Source: Myxococcota bacterium (GTDB lineage: Bacteria > Myxococcota_A > Bradymonadia > UBA7976 > UBA1532). Taken from it: DNA of 64,000 nt. Where the stretch lies: NCBI GenBank assembly GCA_963169045.1, contig CAUJDF010000106.1, positions 1 through 64,000 on the forward strand. The letters are read 5' to 3'. The translations under genes were made by a program, and so were the position numbers. Under the pieces are notes generated by a model. The model worked only from the letters and a program-made list of their open reading frames with translations, was not told where the DNA came from and ran no database searches. Below, piece after piece: positions 13,381 through 26,481 of the stretch; positions within the stretch are counted from its first letter, which is position 1, and each line of letters opens with the position of its first letter.

Positions 13381-15204
13381 TCAGAGGCAGACGCCGTAGA
13401 CCCAGCCGTCCTGGCGGAAGCACTCGCGGCCGGCGGGGCACGCACCGGCCTGGCCGGGCGTGCAGATCTGCAGGCAAATCGGGCCGTTGCCGGTGTTCGC
13501 GCAGAAGCCGTGGCCCGCGCAGTCGGCGTGGCTCGCGCATCGTTCGCCATAACCGGCGTCGCCGGCGGCGCCGCAGAGGCCGCCGTCGGCCGCGAAGTTG
13601 TACGGGCGGCAGTGGCGGCCGGCGCCGCAGTCGTTGCGCGTGATGGCGCAGTCGGACCGCAGGCAGAGACCGACGTGCACCGTCTCGTCGAAGTCCGGCG
13701 TCGCTGCGTCGTCGGGCGTGCCGAAGTCGATGCACTGGCGGCCGGCGCTGCAGGCCGGCGCGCGCGGATCGCACAAGCCTGCACACTCGCCCTGGGCGTC
13801 CCAGTCACGGGACGGGTCGAGCGCGTCGTCCGGGTCGCCGAAGCACAGCGATCCCGGCGCGCACGTCAGGTTCCGCGACGCGACGTCTCGGCCCTGGACC
13901 TGCGCGTTGCAGCCCTGCCCTTCGGCCGCGCTGCCCGCCTCGAGGCACCGCCCGAAGGTCGTGGGATCGGCCCGGGGCCCCGCCGAGAGCGGCAGACAGG
14001 TGCCGGGCCACTGGCCCGCGGAGCCCGCCTGGCAGCCGCCGTAGATGCGACCATTGTTGCCACCGCCGTCGGGACCACAGAGCGTGGGATAGCACACGCC
14101 GAAGTCGGGAATGCACATCGTGTCGAGCGCGCAAGCGTCGTCGTTCTGACAGGAGAAGAGGCAGAGGCCCGAGTTGTCGCTGGTCGGCACGCAGGTCTGC
14201 GAGGGATCGCACTGGTTCGGACCGGCGCAGTCGGTGAATGCGGAGATGACGCACCGACCGTCGTGGCACTCCTGAGTGCCGGCGCGACAGTGATACTCCG
14301 TCTCGCACGTGCCATTCAGCCGAATGCACCGGCCGTCCTCGCAGCTCTCGCCCGCCGCGCACGGGTAGGGACACGGCACGGGGGCGGGCACGCAGGCCCC
14401 CGTCTCGTCGTCGCACTGCAGGCCGTCGCCACAGCCGACGGTGCGGCAGTCGGGCAGGCAGATGCTGACCTCGGGATCGTCGGTGGTGATGCACGCCCAG
14501 CCGTCCCGGCACGGCGTCGCCATGCCGCACTGCTGGAAACACAGACGGCTCTGTCCGCTCGGCAGGCAGACGCGACCCTGGCCGCATTGACCGGAGTCGT
14601 CGCAATCGGCGCGGCAGAAGCCACCGGGGACGGCGCCCATCGACTCCTGCTCGGACAGACAGTCGCCATCCCGACACTCGGCGTCGTCGCCACACGGGTC
14701 GGCGGGTCGCCCGCTCTGGTTGCGCACGCAGCGACCCGTCGCCGGATCGCAGCGCTCTCCGCCCTCGCAGATGACGTCGGCGCAGCGATCGGGGGGAGAG
14801 CCGCCCGCGCCGCCCTCGCCGCCCGCGCCACCCTCACCACCGGCGCCACCCTCACCACCGGCGCCGCCCTCGCCGCCGGCGCCGCCTTCACCGCCGGCAC
14901 CGCCCTCGCCGCCGGCACCGCCCTCGCCGCCGTCGGGCCGGCCGGCATCCTGCGGACCGACGCCGCGTCCCATGTCGCGGGCGAACGGCGGGGTGCCGCA
15001 CTGGTCCTCCTCGACGTGGGCGTTGCCGGCGCCGGGGCCCGTGCGACAGAAATTGTCGATGCACGCGCCGTCGTGCGCCCTCCCACCGATCAGGGTGGTG
15101 CAGCAGGCACCGCTCCCGACGCCAGGCACGACGCACTCGGGCTCCGCCTCCGACGCGCACCCGAAGAATCCGACGATCACCGTTCCCAGCAGAAGTCGCC
15201 GCAT
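13381..15204 (-). CDS. Large Cys-rich lipoprotein with Gly/Glu-rich stalk
   Basis: The protein has 607 aa. It begins with MRRLLLGTVIVGFFGC, a lipoprotein signal with Cys16, preceded by GGAGG. About 100 residues on comes a stalk of GGEGGA units (eight or so six-residue repeats), then more than 400 residues with a very high density of Cys in EGF-like or Dickkopf-like spacing (CEGGERCDPATGRC, CRDGDC, CGDGLQCDDETGAC). Such proteins are common on the surface of Myxococcota and Bradymonadales, probably disulfide-rich; their function is unknown. ATG 15204 is chosen because of the signal and ribosome site. The gene follows a similar lipoprotein gene in the same direction, with a terminator between them. 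Confidence 0.75.
   Translation of the reverse strand: MRRLLLGTVIVGFFGCASEAEPECVVPGVGSGACCTTLIGGRAHDGACIDNFCRTGPGAGNAHVEEDQCGTPPFARDMGRGVGPQDAGRPDGGEGGAGGEGGAGGEGGAGGEGGAGGEGGAGGEGGAGGEGGAGGSPPDRCADVICEGGERCDPATGRCVRNQSGRPADPCGDDAECRDGDCLSEQESMGAVPGGFCRADCDDSGQCGQGRVCLPSGQSRLCFQQCGMATPCRDGWACITTDDPEVSICLPDCRTVGCGDGLQCDDETGACVPAPVPCPYPCAAGESCEDGRCIRLNGTCETEYHCRAGTQECHDGRCVISAFTDCAGPNQCDPSQTCVPTSDNSGLCLFSCQNDDACALDTMCIPDFGVCYPTLCGPDGGGNNGRIYGGCQAGSAGQWPGTCLPLSAGPRADPTTFGRCLEAGSAAEGQGCNAQVQGRDVASRNLTCAPGSLCFGDPDDALDPSRDWDAQGECAGLCDPRAPACSAGRQCIDFGTPDDAATPDFDETVHVGLCLRSDCAITRNDCGAGRHCRPYNFAADGGLCGAAGDAGYGERCASHADCAGHGFCANTGNGPICLQICTPGQAGACPAGRECFRQDGWVYGVCL
14801..14932 (-). repeat. 18-bp tandem repeats encoding the GGEGGA stalk
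   Basis: About seven imperfect 18-bp units (consensus CCGCCGGCGCCGCCCTCG on the + strand) lie in frame inside the lipoprotein gene. Copy number can change without breaking the frame. Confidence 0.8.
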
Positions 15205-15231
15205 CCCCTCGCCTCCTCCCCCAGAAACGCG

Positions 15232-15267
15232 ACGACCCGATCGGCCACGAGGGGCCAATCGGGTCGT
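15232..15267 (-). terminator. Strong intrinsic-type hairpin between the two Cys-rich lipoprotein genes
   Basis: 15232-15246 pairs with 15253-15267 with one mismatch (14 bp), loop of 6 nt, 22 nt beyond the upstream gene's stop. A short GTTT-containing tail follows on the minus strand. Confidence 0.7.
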
Positions 15268-15288: not shown

Positions 15289-16791
15289 CTACAGGCAGGC
15301 CCCGAAACGGTCGCTGGCCTCGAAGACCGCCTGGCAGGCGGAGCCATCGGGGCAGCCCGTGGGCTCCGCGTCCGCGTCGCACAGCTTGACGCAGACGGGC
15401 GGAGCGTTCTGCGCCGTCTGGGCGCAGATGTGACCGGAGTTGCAGTTGCTGTCGCCGGTCTCCTCGTTGGCCTCGCACTCCTCGTTCGTGCCGACCGTCG
15501 TCGCCGCCTTCGGGCCGCAGTTGCCGGCGGCCTGCTCGGCACCCTCGGCGTTGAGCCCGAGGAAGGTCAGGTTGCACACCTGATCTTCGGCGCAGCCCTC
15601 GGCGCCCTCGCCGATGGGGTTGCACTGGCCGACGCAGAGGCCGAGGCCGGGCAGGCCGCTGAAGAGGTCGACCGCGCAGACCTGGTTCTCGCCACAGACG
15701 TTGAGGTTCTCGGCGTGGCAGAACGCGACGCACTCGGTCGGCTCGCCCTCGGCAAAGGTCGTGCAGAGGCTCGAAGCCTCGCAGTCGCCCCAATAGGTCT
15801 GCTCGCTCTGCTCGCAGGCCTCGCCGGGCTGGACCATGCCGGACGCCGCCGGGGCGCAGGAGCCGATGACGCCGCTGTCGGCGAACGAGTCGGCGATGAC
15901 GCAGGACTGACCCTCGTCACAGCCCGTCTGCTCGAACATGTTGCAGCTGGCGTGGCAGATCTTGAACTCGAGGCCGTCGAGCTCGCCGGTCAGGTCGATG
16001 CAGGTCTCGCCCTCGTTCGGGCACGTCTCGTCCGCTTCGCACGCCGCGAGGCACTTGCCGTACTGGCAGGTCAGCTCGGCCACGCAGTGGTCGTTCGGAT
16101 CCTGGGAGCTCGGGTCGCACTCGGCGCCCTGCGCGGCCATGCCGGCCGGCGCGCAGAAGGTCGCCGGGGCGGCGGCGATGCAGTACGCGGGCTCGCCGCA
16201 GGCCAGCTCGGCGTTGCCGGGCGCGCAGTCCTCGCCCGGGAGGCACCAGCCGGGCGACGGCATGTCGACGGGCACGTCCTGCTCGTTCGGGATGCAGAGC
16301 TCGCGGGGACCGCAGCCCGTCGGGTCGCTGTTGGCGTCGCAGACGGTCCGGCACAGGCCGTCGGCCGCGTTCTGCATCTCGGGGATGCAGACCGACCCGA
16401 CGTCGCAGCAGTCGTTCTGCACGTTGCAGACGCCGCCGATCTCGATGGGCTCGGCGCAGCCGGGGCTGCCGCCCTGGCCGCCCTGTCCGCCCTGTCCGCC
16501 CTGGCCGCCCTGGCCGCCCTGACCCCCCTGGCCGCCTTCGCCGCCCTGGCCGCCAGCGCCGCCCTGGCCGCCCTGGCCGCCCTGGCCGCCTTCGCCGCCC
16601 TGGCCGCCTTGGCCGCCCTGACCGCCCTGGCCGCCTTCGCCGCCCTGGCCGCCAGCGCCGCCCTGGTTACCGCCCTGGGCACCGCTGCCGCCCTGGCCGC
16701 CGTCGTCGTCTCCGCCGTCTTCCTGACACCCGACGGTCATCAGCGAGCACGTCGCCGCGAGCACCGCCAGGAACCGGTAAGGGCTCCTCAT
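15289..16791 (-). CDS. Cys-rich lipoprotein with Gly/Gln-rich stalk
   Basis: The protein has 500 aa. From ATG 16791 (preceded by GGAGGAT) it has the lipoprotein signal RSPYRFLAVLAATCSLMTVGC with Cys22, then acidic residues, a stalk of about 80 residues built on GGQ/GGE/GGA triplets, and over 350 residues with regularly spaced Cys (CNVQNDCCDVGSVC, CEADETCPNEGETC, CDEGQSC). The plan matches the next gene downstream, although the two are diverged. The repeated modules of about 45-60 residues, each with 4-6 Cys, suggest a string of small disulfide-bonded domains on the outer membrane. No enzymatic motif is visible. Confidence 0.75.
   Translation of the reverse strand: MRSPYRFLAVLAATCSLMTVGCQEDGGDDDGGQGGSGAQGGNQGGAGGQGGEGGQGGQGGQGGQGGEGGQGGQGGQGGAGGQGGEGGQGGQGGQGGQGGQGGQGGQGGSPGCAEPIEIGGVCNVQNDCCDVGSVCIPEMQNAADGLCRTVCDANSDPTGCGPRELCIPNEQDVPVDMPSPGWCLPGEDCAPGNAELACGEPAYCIAAAPATFCAPAGMAAQGAECDPSSQDPNDHCVAELTCQYGKCLAACEADETCPNEGETCIDLTGELDGLEFKICHASCNMFEQTGCDEGQSCVIADSFADSGVIGSCAPAASGMVQPGEACEQSEQTYWGDCEASSLCTTFAEGEPTECVAFCHAENLNVCGENQVCAVDLFSGLPGLGLCVGQCNPIGEGAEGCAEDQVCNLTFLGLNAEGAEQAAGNCGPKAATTVGTNEECEANEETGDSNCNSGHICAQTAQNAPPVCVKLCDADAEPTGCPDGSACQAVFEASDRFGACL
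16461..16702 (-). repeat. 9-bp Gly-rich triplet repeats in the lipoprotein stalk
   Basis: A long run of GCCGCCCTG-type units (GGQ on the coding strand) with occasional TTCGCC or AGCGCC variants. All changes are multiples of three bases. Confidence 0.8.
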
Positions 16792-16876
16792 CGTCGATCC
16801 TCCGAAGGACGCCTCCCCACGGGCGTCACCGATACAGAACGGGCGACCCCCCTCGGGCAGGCCGCGAACTCGCCGC

Positions 16877-16906
16877 AACCTAGAGAAGGGTCGATGATAG
16901 TGTCAA
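16877..16906 (-). promoter_or_regulatory. Probable sigma70 promoter of the Cys-rich lipoprotein gene
   Basis: On the minus strand a perfect -35 TTGACA (16906-16901) and a -10-like TAGGTT (16882-16877) are 18 bp apart, about 85 nt before the ATG. Confidence 0.45.
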
Positions 16907-17021
16907 CTCCAATGTCCGCCGACTGTCGCAGAGACGGCAGCGAGACGATTCGCAACGGATTTGGACGTTCCTGCAACCCGGCGTTTCGGCGCGAGGGAAG
17001 AATTCTGCACCGGAGGAGAAC

Positions 17022-18038
17022 GTGATCGAGAACCGTCCCGTGGTGGGCGTCGTCGGCGCGACGGGTGTCGTCGGCCGGGAGATCCTCGCGCTACTGGAGG
17101 AGCGGGCCTTCCCCGCCGCGACCGTGCGCGTCTTCGCGTCGTCGCGGTCGGCGCGCGAGCGGCTGGAGTTCGGTGGCCGCGAGGTCGTCGTCGAGACGCT
17201 CGCCGACGGATGCTTCGTCGGCGTCGACCTGGCCTTCTTCGCCGCGGGCGCCGCTGTCGCGACCCGACATGCGCCCGAGGCCGTCGCCGCCGGCGCCGTC
17301 GTCGTGGACACGAGCGGTGCCTTCGCGGGCGACCCGACGGTGCCCCTCGTGGTGCCCGAGATCGACGCGGCGTCGCTCGCGCGGCACGCGGGTGTGGTCG
17401 CGTCACCCACGTCGGGCACCGTCCAGCTGGCGCTCACGCTCCTGCCGCTCGCCGAGGCCGCGGGGCTGCGCCGCGTCTTCGTGTCCACGTACCAGTCGGC
17501 CTCGGGCGCGGGCCGTCGCGCGATGGACGAGCTGCGCGAGCAGACAGTGGCGCTGTTGAGCTTCCGCGAACCGACGATCGAGGCGTTCCCGCGCCGTCTG
17601 GCGTTCGACTGCGTGCCCGCCGTCGGCCAGGTGATGCCCGAAGGCGACACGCGGGACGAGCGGCGACTGGTCGCCGAGACGCGCCGGGTCCTCGCGCTGC
17701 CCGATCTGGCGGTGGGCGCCACCTGTGTCCAGGTGCCGGTGTTCGTGGGCGACGCGATGGCCGTTCACGTCGAGACGGAGCGCCCCCTGTCTCCGGCGGC
17801 GGCGCTCGAGGCACTCGCCGGCGCGTCCTGGCTGAGCGTCGAGCCCGATCCGGAGGACTTCCCCACCGCCCACGACGCCGCCGGACGCGAGGAGATCCTG
17901 GTGGGCCGCGTCCGGCGCGACGGCGACGCGAGCGGCCTCGCCCTGTGGTGCGTCGCCGACAACGTCCGCCGGGGCGCCGCTGGGAACGCCGTCCGCATCG
18001 CGGAGCGCCTGCACCTTCAGGGTCTGGGGCGACACTGA
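17022..18038 (+). CDS. usg: Aspartate-semialdehyde dehydrogenase homologue lacking catalytic residues (USG-1-like)
   Basis: The protein has 338 aa, the normal length of the family, and starts at GTG 17022 with GGAGGAG upstream. The NADP-binding VVGATGVVGREIL and the domain structure (STYQSASGAG, FDCVPAVG, C-terminal WCVADNVRRGAAGNAVRIAE) are intact. The active site is not: the catalytic Cys motif NPNCST reads SPTSGT (128-133), so Cys becomes Ser131; the substrate Arg in CVRVPV is Gln237; and the catalytic His of VGH is Asp244. E. coli USG-1 is a comparable Asd paralogue that has lost the catalytic motif and is linked to truA, as here, where truA lies 1.9 kb downstream on the same strand. A structural or regulatory role is likely rather than lysine/threonine synthesis. 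Confidence 0.8.
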   Translation: MIENRPVVGVVGATGVVGREILALLEERAFPAATVRVFASSRSARERLEFGGREVVVETLADGCFVGVDLAFFAAGAAVATRHAPEAVAAGAVVVDTSGAFAGDPTVPLVVPEIDAASLARHAGVVASPTSGTVQLALTLLPLAEAAGLRRVFVSTYQSASGAGRRAMDELREQTVALLSFREPTIEAFPRRLAFDCVPAVGQVMPEGDTRDERRLVAETRRVLALPDLAVGATCVQVPVFVGDAMAVHVETERPLSPAAALEALAGASWLSVEPDPEDFPTAHDAAGREEILVGRVRRDGDASGLALWCVADNVRRGAAGNAVRIAERLHLQGLGRH

Positions 18039-18191: not shown

Positions 18192-19184
18192 ATGCGCCCA
18201 CGCTTCGTCGCCCTCGGCCTGCTCTCGCTCGCCGCCCCCGGCGGCGCGATGGCCATCAGTCAGGGCGACCTGAGCATCCAGCTCGAGGGTGAGACCGATC
18301 GCGCCTTCTTCTTCGGCGTGAAGGACTGCGCGACGGGCGTCGCCGTCGAAGAGAAGGTGGTGGCGAAGCTGGCGAACGCGCCGCAGAGCAACTACTCGGT
18401 GTACGTCCGCTGGCAGCTCGACGATTCGATCTGCCCGGCGATCGACAACGCCGAAGAGGACTGCCCCACCACGGAGGCCGCCGTCTGCGGTTGCCTCGTC
18501 GGCGACAAGAACGCCACCGAGCTCGTCGAGGACTTCAAGCTCCAGGACCTCGTCAACGGGTTGTGTGACGGCAGCAATGTGGTGCGGACCGTCGAGCTCA
18601 AGCTCTTCTTCGATCCCGAGGACTCGAGCAACGCCGACGCCGGCACCTCCGAGTCGCTCGAGAGCGAAGAGACCGTCCGATTCACGATCGACCTCGATCC
18701 GCCCGACAAGCCGGCCGAAGCGCCCGAGGTGCGTGGCGCCGACTCGGCTCTGGTCGTCACCGTCAAGGAGCTGAGCGGCGCCGAGCGCTACAACATCTGC
18801 GCGACGCTGCTCGTCGGCGCCGACAACGACGCGGCCGCCGCGCCGGCAGACCAGGACGCCGGCGCCGTCGCGGGCGAGCCGGTGTGCACCGAGTTCAGCG
18901 AGAGCGAAGCGCTCGCCGGCGCGCGACTGACCGGCGTGAAGAACGGCGAGAACTACGCCGTGACATACGCCGGCATCGACAGCGCGGACAACGTCGGCCC
19001 GGCCAGCAACCCCACACGGGGCCAACCCGAGCAGCTCTACGACCTCGCCGAGAACTACTCGCGCTGGGACGGCGGCGAGACGGGCGGCTGCAACGCGGGC
19101 GGCGCCGGCGCAGCGCTACCCATCCTGGTGCTCGGCGCGGGCGGTCTGCTGGGCCTGGCGCGCGCCCGCCGGAGGAGCCGATGA
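18192..19184 (+). CDS. Secreted MYXO-CTERM-anchored protein of unknown function
   Basis: The protein has 330 aa. It has an N-terminal signal peptide (MRPRFVALGLLSLAAPGGAMA), an acidic ectodomain with paired cysteines (CGC, CPTTEAAVC) and a fibronectin-like region around 175-290 (PDKPAEAPEV, VTVKELSGAERYNICA). The tail GGCNAGGAGAALPILVLGAG followed by ARARRRSR is a MYXO-CTERM signal: Cys, membrane helix, Arg cluster. ATG 18192 is set by GAGGAAAGG and the signal peptide. Its stop overlaps the ATG of the following barrel gene (ATGA), so the two are coupled. The function of the ectodomain is not recognised. Confidence 0.75.
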   Translation: MRPRFVALGLLSLAAPGGAMAISQGDLSIQLEGETDRAFFFGVKDCATGVAVEEKVVAKLANAPQSNYSVYVRWQLDDSICPAIDNAEEDCPTTEAAVCGCLVGDKNATELVEDFKLQDLVNGLCDGSNVVRTVELKLFFDPEDSSNADAGTSESLESEETVRFTIDLDPPDKPAEAPEVRGADSALVVTVKELSGAERYNICATLLVGADNDAAAAPADQDAGAVAGEPVCTEFSESEALAGARLTGVKNGENYAVTYAGIDSADNVGPASNPTRGQPEQLYDLAENYSRWDGGETGGCNAGGAGAALPILVLGAGGLLGLARARRRSR

Positions 19185-19903
19185 AACGCGGTCTGTTCAC
19201 CGGGGCGGCGATCGTGCTCTTCGCTGCCCCCGCCCTCGCGCAGCGCGACGTTCGCGAGTCGGCGCGCTCGTCCTACTTCGAGTTCCGCCTCGGTTTCTAC
19301 CGGCCCGACATCGACAGCGAGTTCAAGAAGTCGCCCTCGATGGAGCGGCCCTTCGAGGCGGCCTTCGGCGACGGCCGCGAGGCGCTGCCCGAGTTGCACC
19401 TCGAGCGCCACTTCTTCCAGCGCTTCGGCACGCTCTCCGGAGGCCTCGGCGTCGGCTACTGGACGATCGAGGGCGAGAGCATCGCACCGAGCGCGGGCGT
19501 GGACGCCTCCGACTCGACGGAGCTCACGATCGTCCCCCTCCAGGCGCAGCTCAGCTACCGGCTCGACTACTTCGAGGACACCTTCCCGCTCGTGCCCATC
19601 CTGCGAGGGGGCCTCGACTACTACCTGTGGCGCATCCTGGACGGCGCCGGGAACAAGGCGAAGTTCGCCAACGGGAACGAGGCCGACGGCGGCACGTGGG
19701 GCTGGCACTACACCTTCGGCGTGCACCTGCTGCTCGACTTCCTCGCCCCCGAGATGGCCGCCGACTTCGATCGCGACGCGGGCGTGAACGGCAGCTACTT
19801 GACGTTCGAGTACCAGATTGCCCGGGTCGACGACTTCGGCAGCGCCGACTCGTTCCGCCTCGGCGACAGCACCTTCTACTTCGGCCTCACCCTCGACTTT
19901 TGA
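19181..19903 (+). CDS. Outer-membrane beta-barrel protein, myxobacterial type
   Basis: The protein has 240 aa with signal peptide MKRGLFTGAAIVLFAAPALAQ. The mature part is an alternating beta pattern rich in aromatic residues (SSYFEFRLGFYRPDIDSE, SGGLGVGYWTIEGE, LSYRLDYFED, GGLDYYLWRI) and ends in FYFGLTLDF with the C-terminal Phe of BAM substrates. It resembles the MXAN_2562-type family of myxobacterial barrels, but I cannot confirm membership. Upstream overlap with the MYXO-CTERM gene and downstream overlap with truA (TTGA) make one transcript likely. Confidence 0.75.
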   Translation: MKRGLFTGAAIVLFAAPALAQRDVRESARSSYFEFRLGFYRPDIDSEFKKSPSMERPFEAAFGDGREALPELHLERHFFQRFGTLSGGLGVGYWTIEGESIAPSAGVDASDSTELTIVPLQAQLSYRLDYFEDTFPLVPILRGGLDYYLWRILDGAGNKAKFANGNEADGGTWGWHYTFGVHLLLDFLAPEMAADFDRDAGVNGSYLTFEYQIARVDDFGSADSFRLGDSTFYFGLTLDF

Positions 19904-20649
19904 GCACCGAGCGGCGCCTCGCCTTCCGGGTCGAATACGACGGCACCGACTACCACGGCTGGCAGTCGCAGCCGACGGGCGTGCCCACGATCGTCGGCGC
20001 GCTCGAGGCGGCGATCGAAGCCGTCCTCGGCGTCCGCTCCCCCGTCGATGGCGCCAGCCGGACCGATGCGGGCGTCCACGCGCGCGACCAGCTCGCGGCG
20101 GTCACGATCCGCCATCCCATCCGACCGGAGGGCTTCGTCAAGGCGCTGAACGCGCGCCTGCCGGGCGACATCGCCGTCCTCGAGGCCTGGGACGTCCCGC
20201 TCGACTTCGCGCCGCGCTTCGCCAACCGCGGCAAGGTGTACTGCTACCGCATGTACGGCGGCATCGTCCGGCGGCCGCTCGTCGATCGCTACGCCTGGCG
20301 CGTGCAGTGGCCGCTCGACGAGGCCCGCATGCACCTCGCCGCGGCGCACCTGATCGGGACGCACGACTTCACGAGCTTCGCCGCCTCCGACGGGGGACAT
20401 CGGACCGCCGAGCGCACGATCGAGGCCATCGACCTGACGCACGAGCCGCACGACCTCTTCGTGATCACGTACCGCGGCACGGCCTTCATGAAGCACATGG
20501 TCCGCAACCTGACGGGCACCCTCGTCGACGTGGGCCGGGGCCAGCTCGAGCCCGATCGCGTCGCCGCCATCCTCGCCGCGCGCGACCGCCGCGCCGCCGG
20601 CCCCACGGCGCCGCCGCGCGGCCTCACGCTCGAGCGCATGTTGCGCTAG
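19900..20649 (+). CDS. truA: tRNA pseudouridine(38-40) synthase TruA
   Basis: The enzyme converts U38-U40 in the anticodon arm of many tRNAs to pseudouridine. The length of 249 aa fits. Key features are AFRVEYDGTDYHGWQ at the N-terminus, the catalytic Asp56 in GASRTDAGVHA, KVYCYRMYGG, GTHDFTSFAA and FMKHMVRNLTGTLVDVGRG. I start it at TTG 19900, which overlaps the stop of the barrel gene and gives STERRLAFRVEYDG; no ATG is available before the conserved N-terminus. Its linkage to the usg-like gene parallels gammaproteobacteria. Confidence 0.95.
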   Translation: MSTERRLAFRVEYDGTDYHGWQSQPTGVPTIVGALEAAIEAVLGVRSPVDGASRTDAGVHARDQLAAVTIRHPIRPEGFVKALNARLPGDIAVLEAWDVPLDFAPRFANRGKVYCYRMYGGIVRRPLVDRYAWRVQWPLDEARMHLAAAHLIGTHDFTSFAASDGGHRTAERTIEAIDLTHEPHDLFVITYRGTAFMKHMVRNLTGTLVDVGRGQLEPDRVAAILAARDRRAAGPTAPPRGLTLERMLR

Positions 20650-23665: not shown

Positions 23666-24157
23666 TCAGCCGAGCAGCCCGTCGATCTGGAGGCGGACGG
23701 CCTCCTCGTCCATGCCCTGGGCGACGGCGAGCTCCTGCACGAGAAGCGTCTGTGCCATCTCGTAAACGCGGCGCTCGCCGTACGACAGCTGCTTGTCGCC
23801 CTTCATCAGGTGCAGATCGCGGAGCACCTGGGCGACCTCCATCAGGTCGCCGCTCTGGATCTTCTCGACATAGCGGCGGTAGCGGCGGTTCCAGTTCGGC
23901 TCTTCGATGGCGACCTCTTCGGCGCGCAGCACCGACAGGACCTGGTCGATGCCCTCCTGGCAGACCACCGAACGCAGCCCGACCTGCTCCACGTTCTTCA
24001 CGGGGACGCGGATCTTCTTCTCGGAGTCGAGGCAACGCAGGACGTAGAACTGGTTCGTGCAGCCGGAGATCTCGAGCGTCTCGATGCTGGTGACCTGGGT
24101 CACGCCTTGGGCGGGATAGACCGCCATGTCACCCACGTTGAAAGCCACTACTGCCAC
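23666..24157 (-). CDS. cdnL: CarD/CdnL-family RNA polymerase-binding regulator
   Basis: CdnL binds the RNA polymerase beta subunit and stabilises open complexes at rRNA and other promoters; it is essential in Myxococcus. The 163-aa protein has the N-terminal RNAP-interaction domain (FNVGDMAVYPAQGVTQV) and the C-terminal helical DNA-contact domain including Trp89 in PNWNRRYRRYVEKI, the wedge-type residue known in this family. GTG 24157 is selected because GGGGAGG lies 6-7 nt upstream and gives a length equal to M. xanthus CdnL; an in-frame GTG at 24178 has no such site. It is transcribed apart from its neighbours. Confidence 0.92.
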   Translation of the reverse strand: MAVVAFNVGDMAVYPAQGVTQVTSIETLEISGCTNQFYVLRCLDSEKKIRVPVKNVEQVGLRSVVCQEGIDQVLSVLRAEEVAIEEPNWNRRYRRYVEKIQSGDLMEVAQVLRDLHLMKGDKQLSYGERRVYEMAQTLLVQELAVAQGMDEEAVRLQIDGLLG

Positions 24158-24437
24158 CGGGTACCTCCCCACCGACACGGTCCGCGGCGCGCCGCGCGCG
24201 AGCCGATCGGGGTTCTGCTGACCGCCCGGGCGCTAGAGCAGGAATCGTGCCCGTACGCCACGCACCGCGTGAACACGCGCGTGGCGACGGGATATTCCGA
24301 CGCAGGACGAGCCGCGACAGGCGGCTCCCGGGAACGTCAGGGCGGACCGCAGTCTAGCGCGGTCGCACGGACCGGCGAAAGTCGGGGGGTGGCGCCCGGT
24401 GTTGCCACCGAAAGCGCAGGCGCCACCGAGGCGGGGT

Positions 24438-24906: not shown

Positions 24907-26481
24907 ATGTCGACCTCCAGTCTGGTCCGCGCCGCCGCCCTCGTCGTCCTGACGGCCCTCGCCGGGTGCCGGACGGGCGACGCGCCGCAGGCCGACGCCG
25001 GCGCGCGCCTCGCCGACGCTGCGCGCAAGGGCGAGGCGCCGCGCGACGCCATCGGGCGCGCGGGCCCCGTCGTCCTCGACCTCGCCGGCTTCCGCATCGC
25101 CATCGACGAGGCGCGCGTGCTGCAGTTCTGGCGCACGGGCGAGCCGCCGCCGGTCGAGGCGCTGCGCAACGCGATGCTGCGGCGCCGCGTGGTCGCCAAG
25201 GCGCTCGAGACGCGCGTCGTCCGCGAGGAGGCGGCCCGGCGCGGTCTGGCCGTCCCGCCCGAGCGACTCGCGCAGGCGCTCGAGAACTTCGCCGCGGGGC
25301 GTCCGCTCGACGCGCCCCTCCCCGAGCCCGCGCCCGATCCGGGCACGATCGACGCGCGCCTGGCCGCGCGCTACGGGACGGCGCCCGAGCGCGCCCGCCA
25401 GGTCGTCGTCGACCTGCTCTACGCCGGGCTGCTGTCGGATGCGCTGCTGGCCGAGACGCCGGACGCCACGCTGCGGCGCGCCTGGGAGGACGAGGAGACG
25501 CAGGCCCGCGTCGACGTCGTCCAGGTGCCGCGCGTGCCGACCACGAAAGAGATCGATCGCGCCGTCCGCGAGCGGGCGCCCGCCATCGCCGCGTTCTACG
25601 AGAAGAACCGCGAGCGCTTCCAGAAGCCGGAGCGGGCGCTCGGCCGGCGCGTCGTCGTGCCGGTGCCGTCGGGCGCCGACGCCGCCGCGCGCGAGGCCGC
25701 CCGCACGAAGGCGGAGGCCCTGCGCGCGCGCGTGGCCGGCGGTGAGGACCTCGCGAAGGTCGCCTCGGCGGAGACGATCGAAGGCGAGCGTCGGCGCGCC
25801 GGTGTCGTCGGCCCCTGGACGCGGGAGCAGGCGCCCGAGCTGTTTGAGATGAAGCAGGGCGAGCTCTCGCCCGTGCGCCCGCACCGGCTGGGCTTCATTT
25901 TCTTGCGTGTCGAGAGCCGCATCCCCGCGACGGTGCGGCCGCTCGACGACACCACCGTGCAGCGCGAGGTCGCCGCCGAGATCCTGCGGGACGAGGACGC
26001 GCTACCGCACGCCCGTCAGGTGGCCGAGAGGGCGCGCGAGCTGCTCCGCACCGATCCGACGGGCTCGGCCCTCGACGCCCTCGTCGGGAGCGAGCGCCTT
26101 CGGCGCGCGACGACCGAGCCCTTCCCCCGGGCGGTCGGGCGCGTGCCGGGCATCGGCCTTGCGCCCGAGCTCTTCGAGGCGGTGTTCAAGCTCACCGAGG
26201 CGGCGCCGGTGACGCCGGTGTTCACCGTCCGGCAGGACTACGTCGTTGCGCGCCGCGTCGACTTCCGCGCACCCGACCCGGCGCAGTGGCCGCAGGTACG
26301 GGCCACGTTCGCGCAGCGCTGGCGCGAGCGCGAGCGGCCCCACGTGGTCGATCGCTGGCTGAACGATCGCCTGCGCGGCGAGGCGATGTGGATCGACGGA
26401 CCGCGCGTCGACGCCCTCACGCTCGACGATCTCGGCGTCGGCGCCGCCGACGCGGTCAAGCCGACGCCGCCGGCGCCCTGA
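24907..26481 (+). CDS. SurA/PpiD-like parvulin-type lipoprotein
   Basis: The protein has 524 aa. A lipoprotein signal (LVRAAALVVLTALAGC) ends at Cys21. An N-terminal helical chaperone-like half (about 60-230) is followed by a rotamase (parvulin) region, with ARGDxA-type helices (KAEALRARVAGGEDLAKVAS), GVVGPWTREQAPELFEMKQG and LGFIFLRVESRIPAT. A second degenerate PPIase-like segment lies at about 390-470. Several parvulin catalytic residues are not obvious, so it may be only a periplasmic chaperone. It is convergent with, and 8 nt from, the BamD-like gene; both point to outer-membrane protein assembly. Confidence 0.72.
   Translation: MSTSSLVRAAALVVLTALAGCRTGDAPQADAGARLADAARKGEAPRDAIGRAGPVVLDLAGFRIAIDEARVLQFWRTGEPPPVEALRNAMLRRRVVAKALETRVVREEAARRGLAVPPERLAQALENFAAGRPLDAPLPEPAPDPGTIDARLAARYGTAPERARQVVVDLLYAGLLSDALLAETPDATLRRAWEDEETQARVDVVQVPRVPTTKEIDRAVRERAPAIAAFYEKNRERFQKPERALGRRVVVPVPSGADAAAREAARTKAEALRARVAGGEDLAKVASAETIEGERRRAGVVGPWTREQAPELFEMKQGELSPVRPHRLGFIFLRVESRIPATVRPLDDTTVQREVAAEILRDEDALPHARQVAERARELLRTDPTGSALDALVGSERLRRATTEPFPRAVGRVPGIGLAPELFEAVFKLTEAAPVTPVFTVRQDYVVARRVDFRAPDPAQWPQVRATFAQRWRERERPHVVDRWLNDRLRGEAMWIDGPRVDALTLDDLGVGAADAVKPTPPAP

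Follow-up and report, generated by a model that had tools for sequence, protein, structure and literature searches.

The gene at positions 17022-18038 of the window (the whole 64,000-nucleotide stretch of Myxococcota DNA analysed here) encodes an orthologue of the bacterial aspartate-semialdehyde dehydrogenase, Asd_B, in which the active site has been replaced, and it is very probably a pseudoenzyme. This reading is based on the replacement of six active-site residues and on the presence of another, intact Asd in the same genome. The overall account, which we consider fairly likely, is that the native truA-linked Asd was displaced by a foreign Asd, lost catalysis and was kept for a non-catalytic role.

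Fold and active site of the Asd_B orthologue

The gene, its altered codons and the genes that follow it as far as truA are listed here.

17012..17017, + strand: GGAGGA, likely ribosome-binding site of the asd gene, 4 bases upstream of the GTG
17022..18038, + strand: Asd_B orthologue with a putatively dead active site, 338 aa, GTG start, stop codon at 18036-18038
17055..17075, + strand: codons of the NADP-binding loop GATGVVG, residues 12-18, retained
17325..17327, + strand: codon 102, Ala replacing the phosphate-binding Arg
17403..17420, + strand: codons 128-133, SPTSGT for NPNCST, with Ser131 for Cys
17655..17666, + strand: codons 212-215, D-E-R-R for E-E-x-K, the residues for the substrate amino group and phosphate
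17730..17753, + strand: codons 237-244, Gln237 for the carboxylate-binding Arg and Asp244 for the catalytic His
18192..19184, + strand: first intervening gene, with a signal peptide and a MYXO-CTERM-like tail (hydrophobic stretch plus RRR), conserved between asd and truA in the order
19181..19903, + strand: second intervening gene, apparently a small exported outer-membrane barrel, found between asd and truA in the order and class (33-54%)
19897..20649, + strand: truA, tRNA pseudouridine synthase (PF01416), 51-63% identical to the truA of the order

The window protein has both semialdehyde-dehydrogenase Pfam domains (PF01118, 93.9 bits; PF02774, 145.2 bits), and the dimerisation domain is kept. 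Its best NCBIfam match is the bacterial Asd model PRK14874, at 353.4 bits for a cut-off of 223. TIGR01296 is narrowly missed (314.7 against 324.2), and the two USG-1-type models also score below their cut-offs (PRK08040, 243.7 against 273; PRK05671, 258.1 against 284). The AlphaFold model is confident (pLDDT 91.9, pTM 0.90) and superposes on V. cholerae Asd II with a TM of 0.94 and on the P. aeruginosa USG-1 homologue 2hjs with a TM of 0.93. By domains, model and superposition the protein thus has the fold and NADP loop of an active Asd_B. The sequence-only reading had also seen a retained NADP fold, and GATGVVG and the two Pfam domains agree with it. The GC3 of the gene is 0.917, like that of its neighbours. 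The protein is orthologous by locus and sequence to the bacterial Asd_B enzymes (PRK14874/TIGR01296; V. cholerae Asd II, 2qz9/2r00; S. pneumoniae, 2gyy), and has the fold, NADP loop and dimerisation domain in common with them, but its six active-site residues are replaced.

By alignment, the changes named in the sequence-only reading (SPTSGT for NPNCST with Ser131, Gln237 for Arg and Asp244 for His) are exactly as claimed. The list was incomplete, since R102A, E212D and K215R were also found. All six catalytic and substrate residues characterised in Haemophilus Asd are therefore changed (R102A, C131S, E212D, K215R, R237Q and H244D). The corresponding H. influenzae positions, mapped by an alignment via gamma-type Asds of known numbering, are R103 (A102 in the window protein), C136 (S131), E243 (D212), K246 (R215), R270 (Q237) and H277 (D244). 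Eight key sites read R-N-C-Q-E-K-R-H in all 60 intact Asd_B and A-T-S-Q-D-R-Q-D in the window protein, where the Gln alone is kept; the catalytic Cys-His pair and the substrate residues of an active Asd_B are absent. At 38 of 54 near-invariant positions the usual residue is kept, including G12, T14, G15 and G18 of the nucleotide loop, and many of the lost positions fall at the active site.

Single mutants of H. influenzae Asd retain little activity: <0.01% for C136S, 1% for H277N, 0.1% for R270K, 1.2% for E243D, 3.3% for K246R and 0.4/0.07% for R103K/L (PMC3276109). For the H. influenzae and V. cholerae enzymes together, single mutants at the six key positions have from <0.01 to about 10% of activity left (PMC3276109). 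Three of the window replacements correspond exactly to mutants assayed in the H. influenzae enzyme: C to S (<0.01%), E to D (1.2%) and K to R (3.3%). Judged by these published mutants, the window protein would be without Asd activity, and the replacements at all characterised sites bear out the view that it has no usable Asd active site. Annotation pipelines should take warning, since the NCBI model PRK14874 labels this dead protein aspartate-semialdehyde dehydrogenase. The genome is a draft of 109 contigs with a contamination estimate of 2.69%, which could raise the suspicion of an assembly or sequencing artefact; but the frame is open, the six codon changes are coordinated and the 64-kb window around them has a uniform composition, which makes this hardly credible.

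The truA neighbourhood and the Asd genes of the class

The asd gene lies near truA and on the same strand, with two genes (18192-19184 and 19181-19903) between them, as had been described from the sequence. The gene order of the family is orf12233, two Cys-rich exported proteins, asd, the MYXO-CTERM-like gene, the barrel gene and truA, followed by a further exported protein, OmpA and a CarD-like gene (23666-24178), and this block is conserved where contigs allow. In the order relatives whose contig reaches truA, truA follows asd on the same strand, in most cases at a distance of about 2 kb. The two adjacent Cys-rich exported proteins (13381-15258 and 15289-16878, both on the - strand) have long Gly-Glu-Ala-rich (GGEGGAGG)n linkers, gave no match in a Pfam search, and are syntenic within the family; in several genera they lie upstream of asd. 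A large exported protein at 24907-26481 (+ strand), probably of the peptidyl-prolyl isomerase kind, has matches close to truA in two genomes of the class (25-29%; L249, L250) and may belong to a wider conserved neighbourhood. Outside the phylum, an intact Asd_B has a truA match 0.4-1.6 kb away on the same strand in a Legionellales MAG (L079), a Thermoguttaceae MAG (L069) and a Hydrogenothermaceae MAG (L041), so that the linkage reaches Gammaproteobacteria, Planctomycetota and Aquificota.

The sequence-only reading had proposed a search for a second asd with an intact motif, and one was found. A PF01118 profile search of the genome gave ArgC on contig C58, a second Asd on C103, the window gene and one weak match on C53. 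The C103 Asd has 374 aa and an intact PNCTS motif, and is of the archaeal/fungal type (TIGR00978, 357 bits for a cut-off of 301). Contamination is an unlikely source of the C103 contig, because its tetranucleotide use matches that of the window (r 0.996). The C103 Asd is 60-69% identical to the Asds of one other family of the phylum, f19, and none of the other genomes of the class has an archaeal/fungal-type Asd over the cut-off, which makes horizontal gain the simplest reading. From these identities, the donor was probably another Myxococcota-like lineage, family f19. As a first step, then, the lineage appears to have gained this Asd, probably by transfer from f19, and the gained enzyme appears to run the biosynthetic reaction.

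The intact orthologue of the window gene is the only Asd found in the sister genera. Within the order, asd_B is intact in 13 of the 14 other genomes in which the gene was read (the window protein is 43-56% identical to these enzymes), and the exception is G007, where it is dead. G008, a congener of G007, has an intact asd_B. G007 itself also encodes a gamma-type Asd (497 bits) whose motif is intact. Apart from the window copy and that of G007, all 45 asd_B genes read in the class are intact (13 in the order, 32 others), a reading that left out G041 (partial), G052 and G053, while several class genomes, mostly incomplete, had no asd_B found. None of these 45 genomes has an archaeal/fungal-type or gamma-type Asd over the cut-off. 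The only two asd_B-bearing genomes of the class with a foreign Asd are thus the only two with a dead asd_B. The family amounts to a natural experiment at one locus, with the gene intact where it is the sole Asd found and dead where a foreign Asd arrived. The exact dead gene of the window is carried by one genome, and a contig search gave no near relative or sister species.

The gamma-proteobacterial-type Asd occurs over the TIGR01745 cut-off in G007 (contig C309; L268, L287) and in G037 (contig C318; L280, L286), a gain separate from that of the archaeal-type Asd in the genome of the window. G037 has no detectable asd_B.

Descent of the dead copies and relation to USG-1

In a tree with the active-site blocks masked, the window gene and that of G007 fall inside the clade of their order (98/92), and the other dead copies of the phylum make up a group of their own (91/87). 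Alternative trees that unite them are not rejected by AU tests (p 0.29-0.39), including the union of the window gene with those copies (p 0.39). The tree check against Asd proposed by the sequence-only reading thus places the gene inside its own order, with AU tests that are not decisive; its in-order origin rests on synteny and the best tree, because sequence alone does not settle it. In a quick tree that included the active-site columns, the window gene and G007 came out close to the dead copies, and E. coli Usg, present in that tree only, on a long branch away from the window gene. This placement was set aside, as masking moved both genes into their order, and it is probably due to convergence or long-branch attraction.

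The sequence-only reading held that the asd-truA pair is ancient. The linkage is indeed old, but synteny and the masked tree make the loss of catalysis in the window gene lineage-specific. Taken with the intact gene in the congener of G007, synteny argues for three or more losses within the phylum, apart from that of USG-1 in the gamma-proteobacteria; the other dead copies of the phylum probably represent a separate, older loss. G007 would have undergone the same events after gain of a gamma-type Asd, independently on the best tree.

USG-1 is, to our knowledge, a long-known gene beside truA with no established function. Usg/USG-1 of E. coli and Salmonella (PRK08040, PRK05671; 2hjs) has the Asd fold in common with the window protein and likewise is without the catalytic Cys, Arg and Lys. 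Its gene is just upstream of truA, which it overlaps by 1 base in E. coli, and its genome has a different active Asd, as does that of the window. At the eight key sites E. coli Usg reads A-D-S-I-E-R-Q-H. Unlike Usg, the window gene has two envelope genes before truA, scores below both USG-1 model cut-offs, and belongs to a genome whose other Asd is archaeal/fungal rather than gamma type; its intact orthologue is still the sole Asd found in sister genera. The window protein and E. coli USG have 10 lost positions in common (p 0.005), with the same new residue at 5. On a history of separate losses, these similarities would be parallel change. The window protein matches the consensus of the dead copies at 8 of its 14 changed positions inside the active-site blocks and at 5 of 11 outside them, which is no clear difference.

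Alternatively, the window gene and E. coli USG-1 could be one ancient paralogue that was inherited next to truA, as the sequence-only reading had assumed. The truA linkage, the common replacements R102A, C131S, K215R and R237Q, and the failure of the AU tests to reject a grouping with dead copies would agree with this. The idea was nevertheless rejected on synteny and model scores, since the gene is syntenic with the intact asd of its family and scores above PRK14874 and below both USG-1 models; with the masked tree and the intact gene of G008, congener of the dead G007, it is very unlikely.

Dead copies across the phylum and a probable retained role

An archaeal/fungal-type Asd is over the cut-off in 74 of 379 genomes searched, many of which also hold a divergent asd_B-like gene. 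Outside the class 51 dead copies were read, with 0-2 of the 8 key residues kept. They resemble the window gene in this, in having truA mostly downstream and in having another Asd in the genome, and differ in often lying directly beside truA; identity to the window protein is 31-43%. truA is downstream on the same strand in 46 of the 51, either within about 150 bases or at about 2.4-2.8 kb. Every one of the 51 has another Asd in its genome (archaeal/fungal type, gamma type or a second asd_B whose catalytic residues are intact), a figure that is biased because most of the copies were chosen after the second Asd was seen. Three copies (G069, G075 and G090) had been read as dead when no other Asd of their genomes was yet known; all three genomes then proved to have a gamma-type Asd.

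There are exceptions to this association. V. cholerae combines a gamma-type Asd (1mb4) with an Asd_B in which NPNCST is intact (2qz9), G037 has a gamma-type Asd but no detectable asd_B, and about 23 of 76 genomes with the archaeal/fungal-type Asd have no asd_B-like match, so neither inactivation nor retention is obligatory.

The positions G12, G18, D96, G164, L171, A194 and E213 are kept in all 51 dead copies, and C131 and K215 in none. Among related dead copies dN/dS (NG86) is 0.07-0.49, and for truA, in the same pairs where both are measurable, 0.11-0.44; YN00 yielded few usable rates from DNA so rich in GC, and two intact pairs had no dS by NG86. Judged from these ratios, purifying selection on the dead copies of the phylum is comparable to that on truA. 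The low dN/dS and the kept structural positions indicate that these are selected proteins with a lost active site. In the G007 copy Gly15 of the nucleotide loop is replaced by Asp, so not all dead copies may bind nucleotide.

The window copy might alternatively be a relict, a resident gene that has been decaying without function since the foreign Asd took over and has yet to acquire a stop codon. Its evolution is accelerated, with an end branch of 0.75-0.97 in the trees and an asd minus truA identity of -0.08 for it and G007, against +0.09 for intact pairs; some genomes have lost the gene entirely. The neutral chance of having no stop codon, 0.04-0.34 at genome-like base composition, is not tiny and makes for a weak test. 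We nonetheless consider a relict unlikely, given the intact frame, a GC3 like that of the neighbours, the 38 of 54 near-invariant positions kept with losses often at the active site, the confident model, and the purifying selection on dead copies elsewhere. For the window copy itself the indications of selection are indirect, namely its frame, GC3 and confident model, set beside its faster evolution relative to truA.

A repurposed enzyme, with a pocket that catalyses another NADP-linked reaction and uses Asp244 as acid/base, would be in keeping with the retained NADP loop and Gln158. Asp is also the commonest residue at the catalytic-His position in the dead copies (9 of 51), and Asp or Glu stands there in the window copy and G007. 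However, the dead copies have no conserved new residue set at the old site and position 131 has no strong nucleophile, so we regard such an activity as improbable. The retained dimerisation domain could also point to an inactive partner of the new Asd, in a mixed oligomer or as an allosteric subunit, but the other Asd varies by lineage (archaeal/fungal type, gamma type or second asd_B) while the dead one persists, and the archaeal/fungal type is only distantly related. The chance of such a partnership seems to us slight indeed.

Under the account that we prefer, displacement by a foreign Asd with retention of the old protein, the gain of the archaeal/fungal-type enzyme would have been followed by loss of the catalytic and substrate-binding residues of the resident Asd_B in place; the replacements themselves are present in the sequence, and the published mutants suggest inactivity. 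The result may be a folded, probably dimeric nucleotide-binding pseudoenzyme, kept for a non-catalytic role tied to the truA neighbourhood. The parallel copies support such retention, and by extension the non-catalytic role put forward for the window protein in the sequence-only reading is likely. The likeliest role may be that of an NADP(H)-sensing or scaffold partner of TruA or of the adjoining envelope genes. Other members of the phylum, and the ancestor of the enterobacterial usg, probably went through the same events long ago.

Repeated loss with retention in related bacteria suggests that the old enzyme has a second job. It is possible, though we lean somewhat against it, that the truA-linked Asd of the Proteobacteria and of this phylum had a second, non-catalytic role before any loss, and that USG-1-type pseudoenzymes arose repeatedly with similar active-site changes. 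If so, a resident Asd would often be reduced to its second role once another Asd takes over, and the function of Usg becomes a testable claim: the role should already exist in intact truA-linked Asd. In Salmonella, peroxide induces both usg and truA, which are transcribed together, and truA supplied on a plasmid restores the growth phenotype of a usg deletion (PMC6358828). The rescue is compatible with action through TruA, but a polar effect would account for it too. Literature searches turned up nothing published on an Asd pseudoenzyme or on the asd of Myxococcus.

In an intact-looking Asd_B subgroup (L241-L244, L157-L164), which is the second asd_B of several phylum genomes, CPNCTT, GPNCTT or VPNCTT stands for NPNCST and TLQ for TYQ; these proteins can do without the motif's first Asn. 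Four genomes of genus g77 (G101, G131, G172 and G252) have a gamma-type Asd and a divergent asd_B-like match with an E of about 1e-52 to 1e-59.
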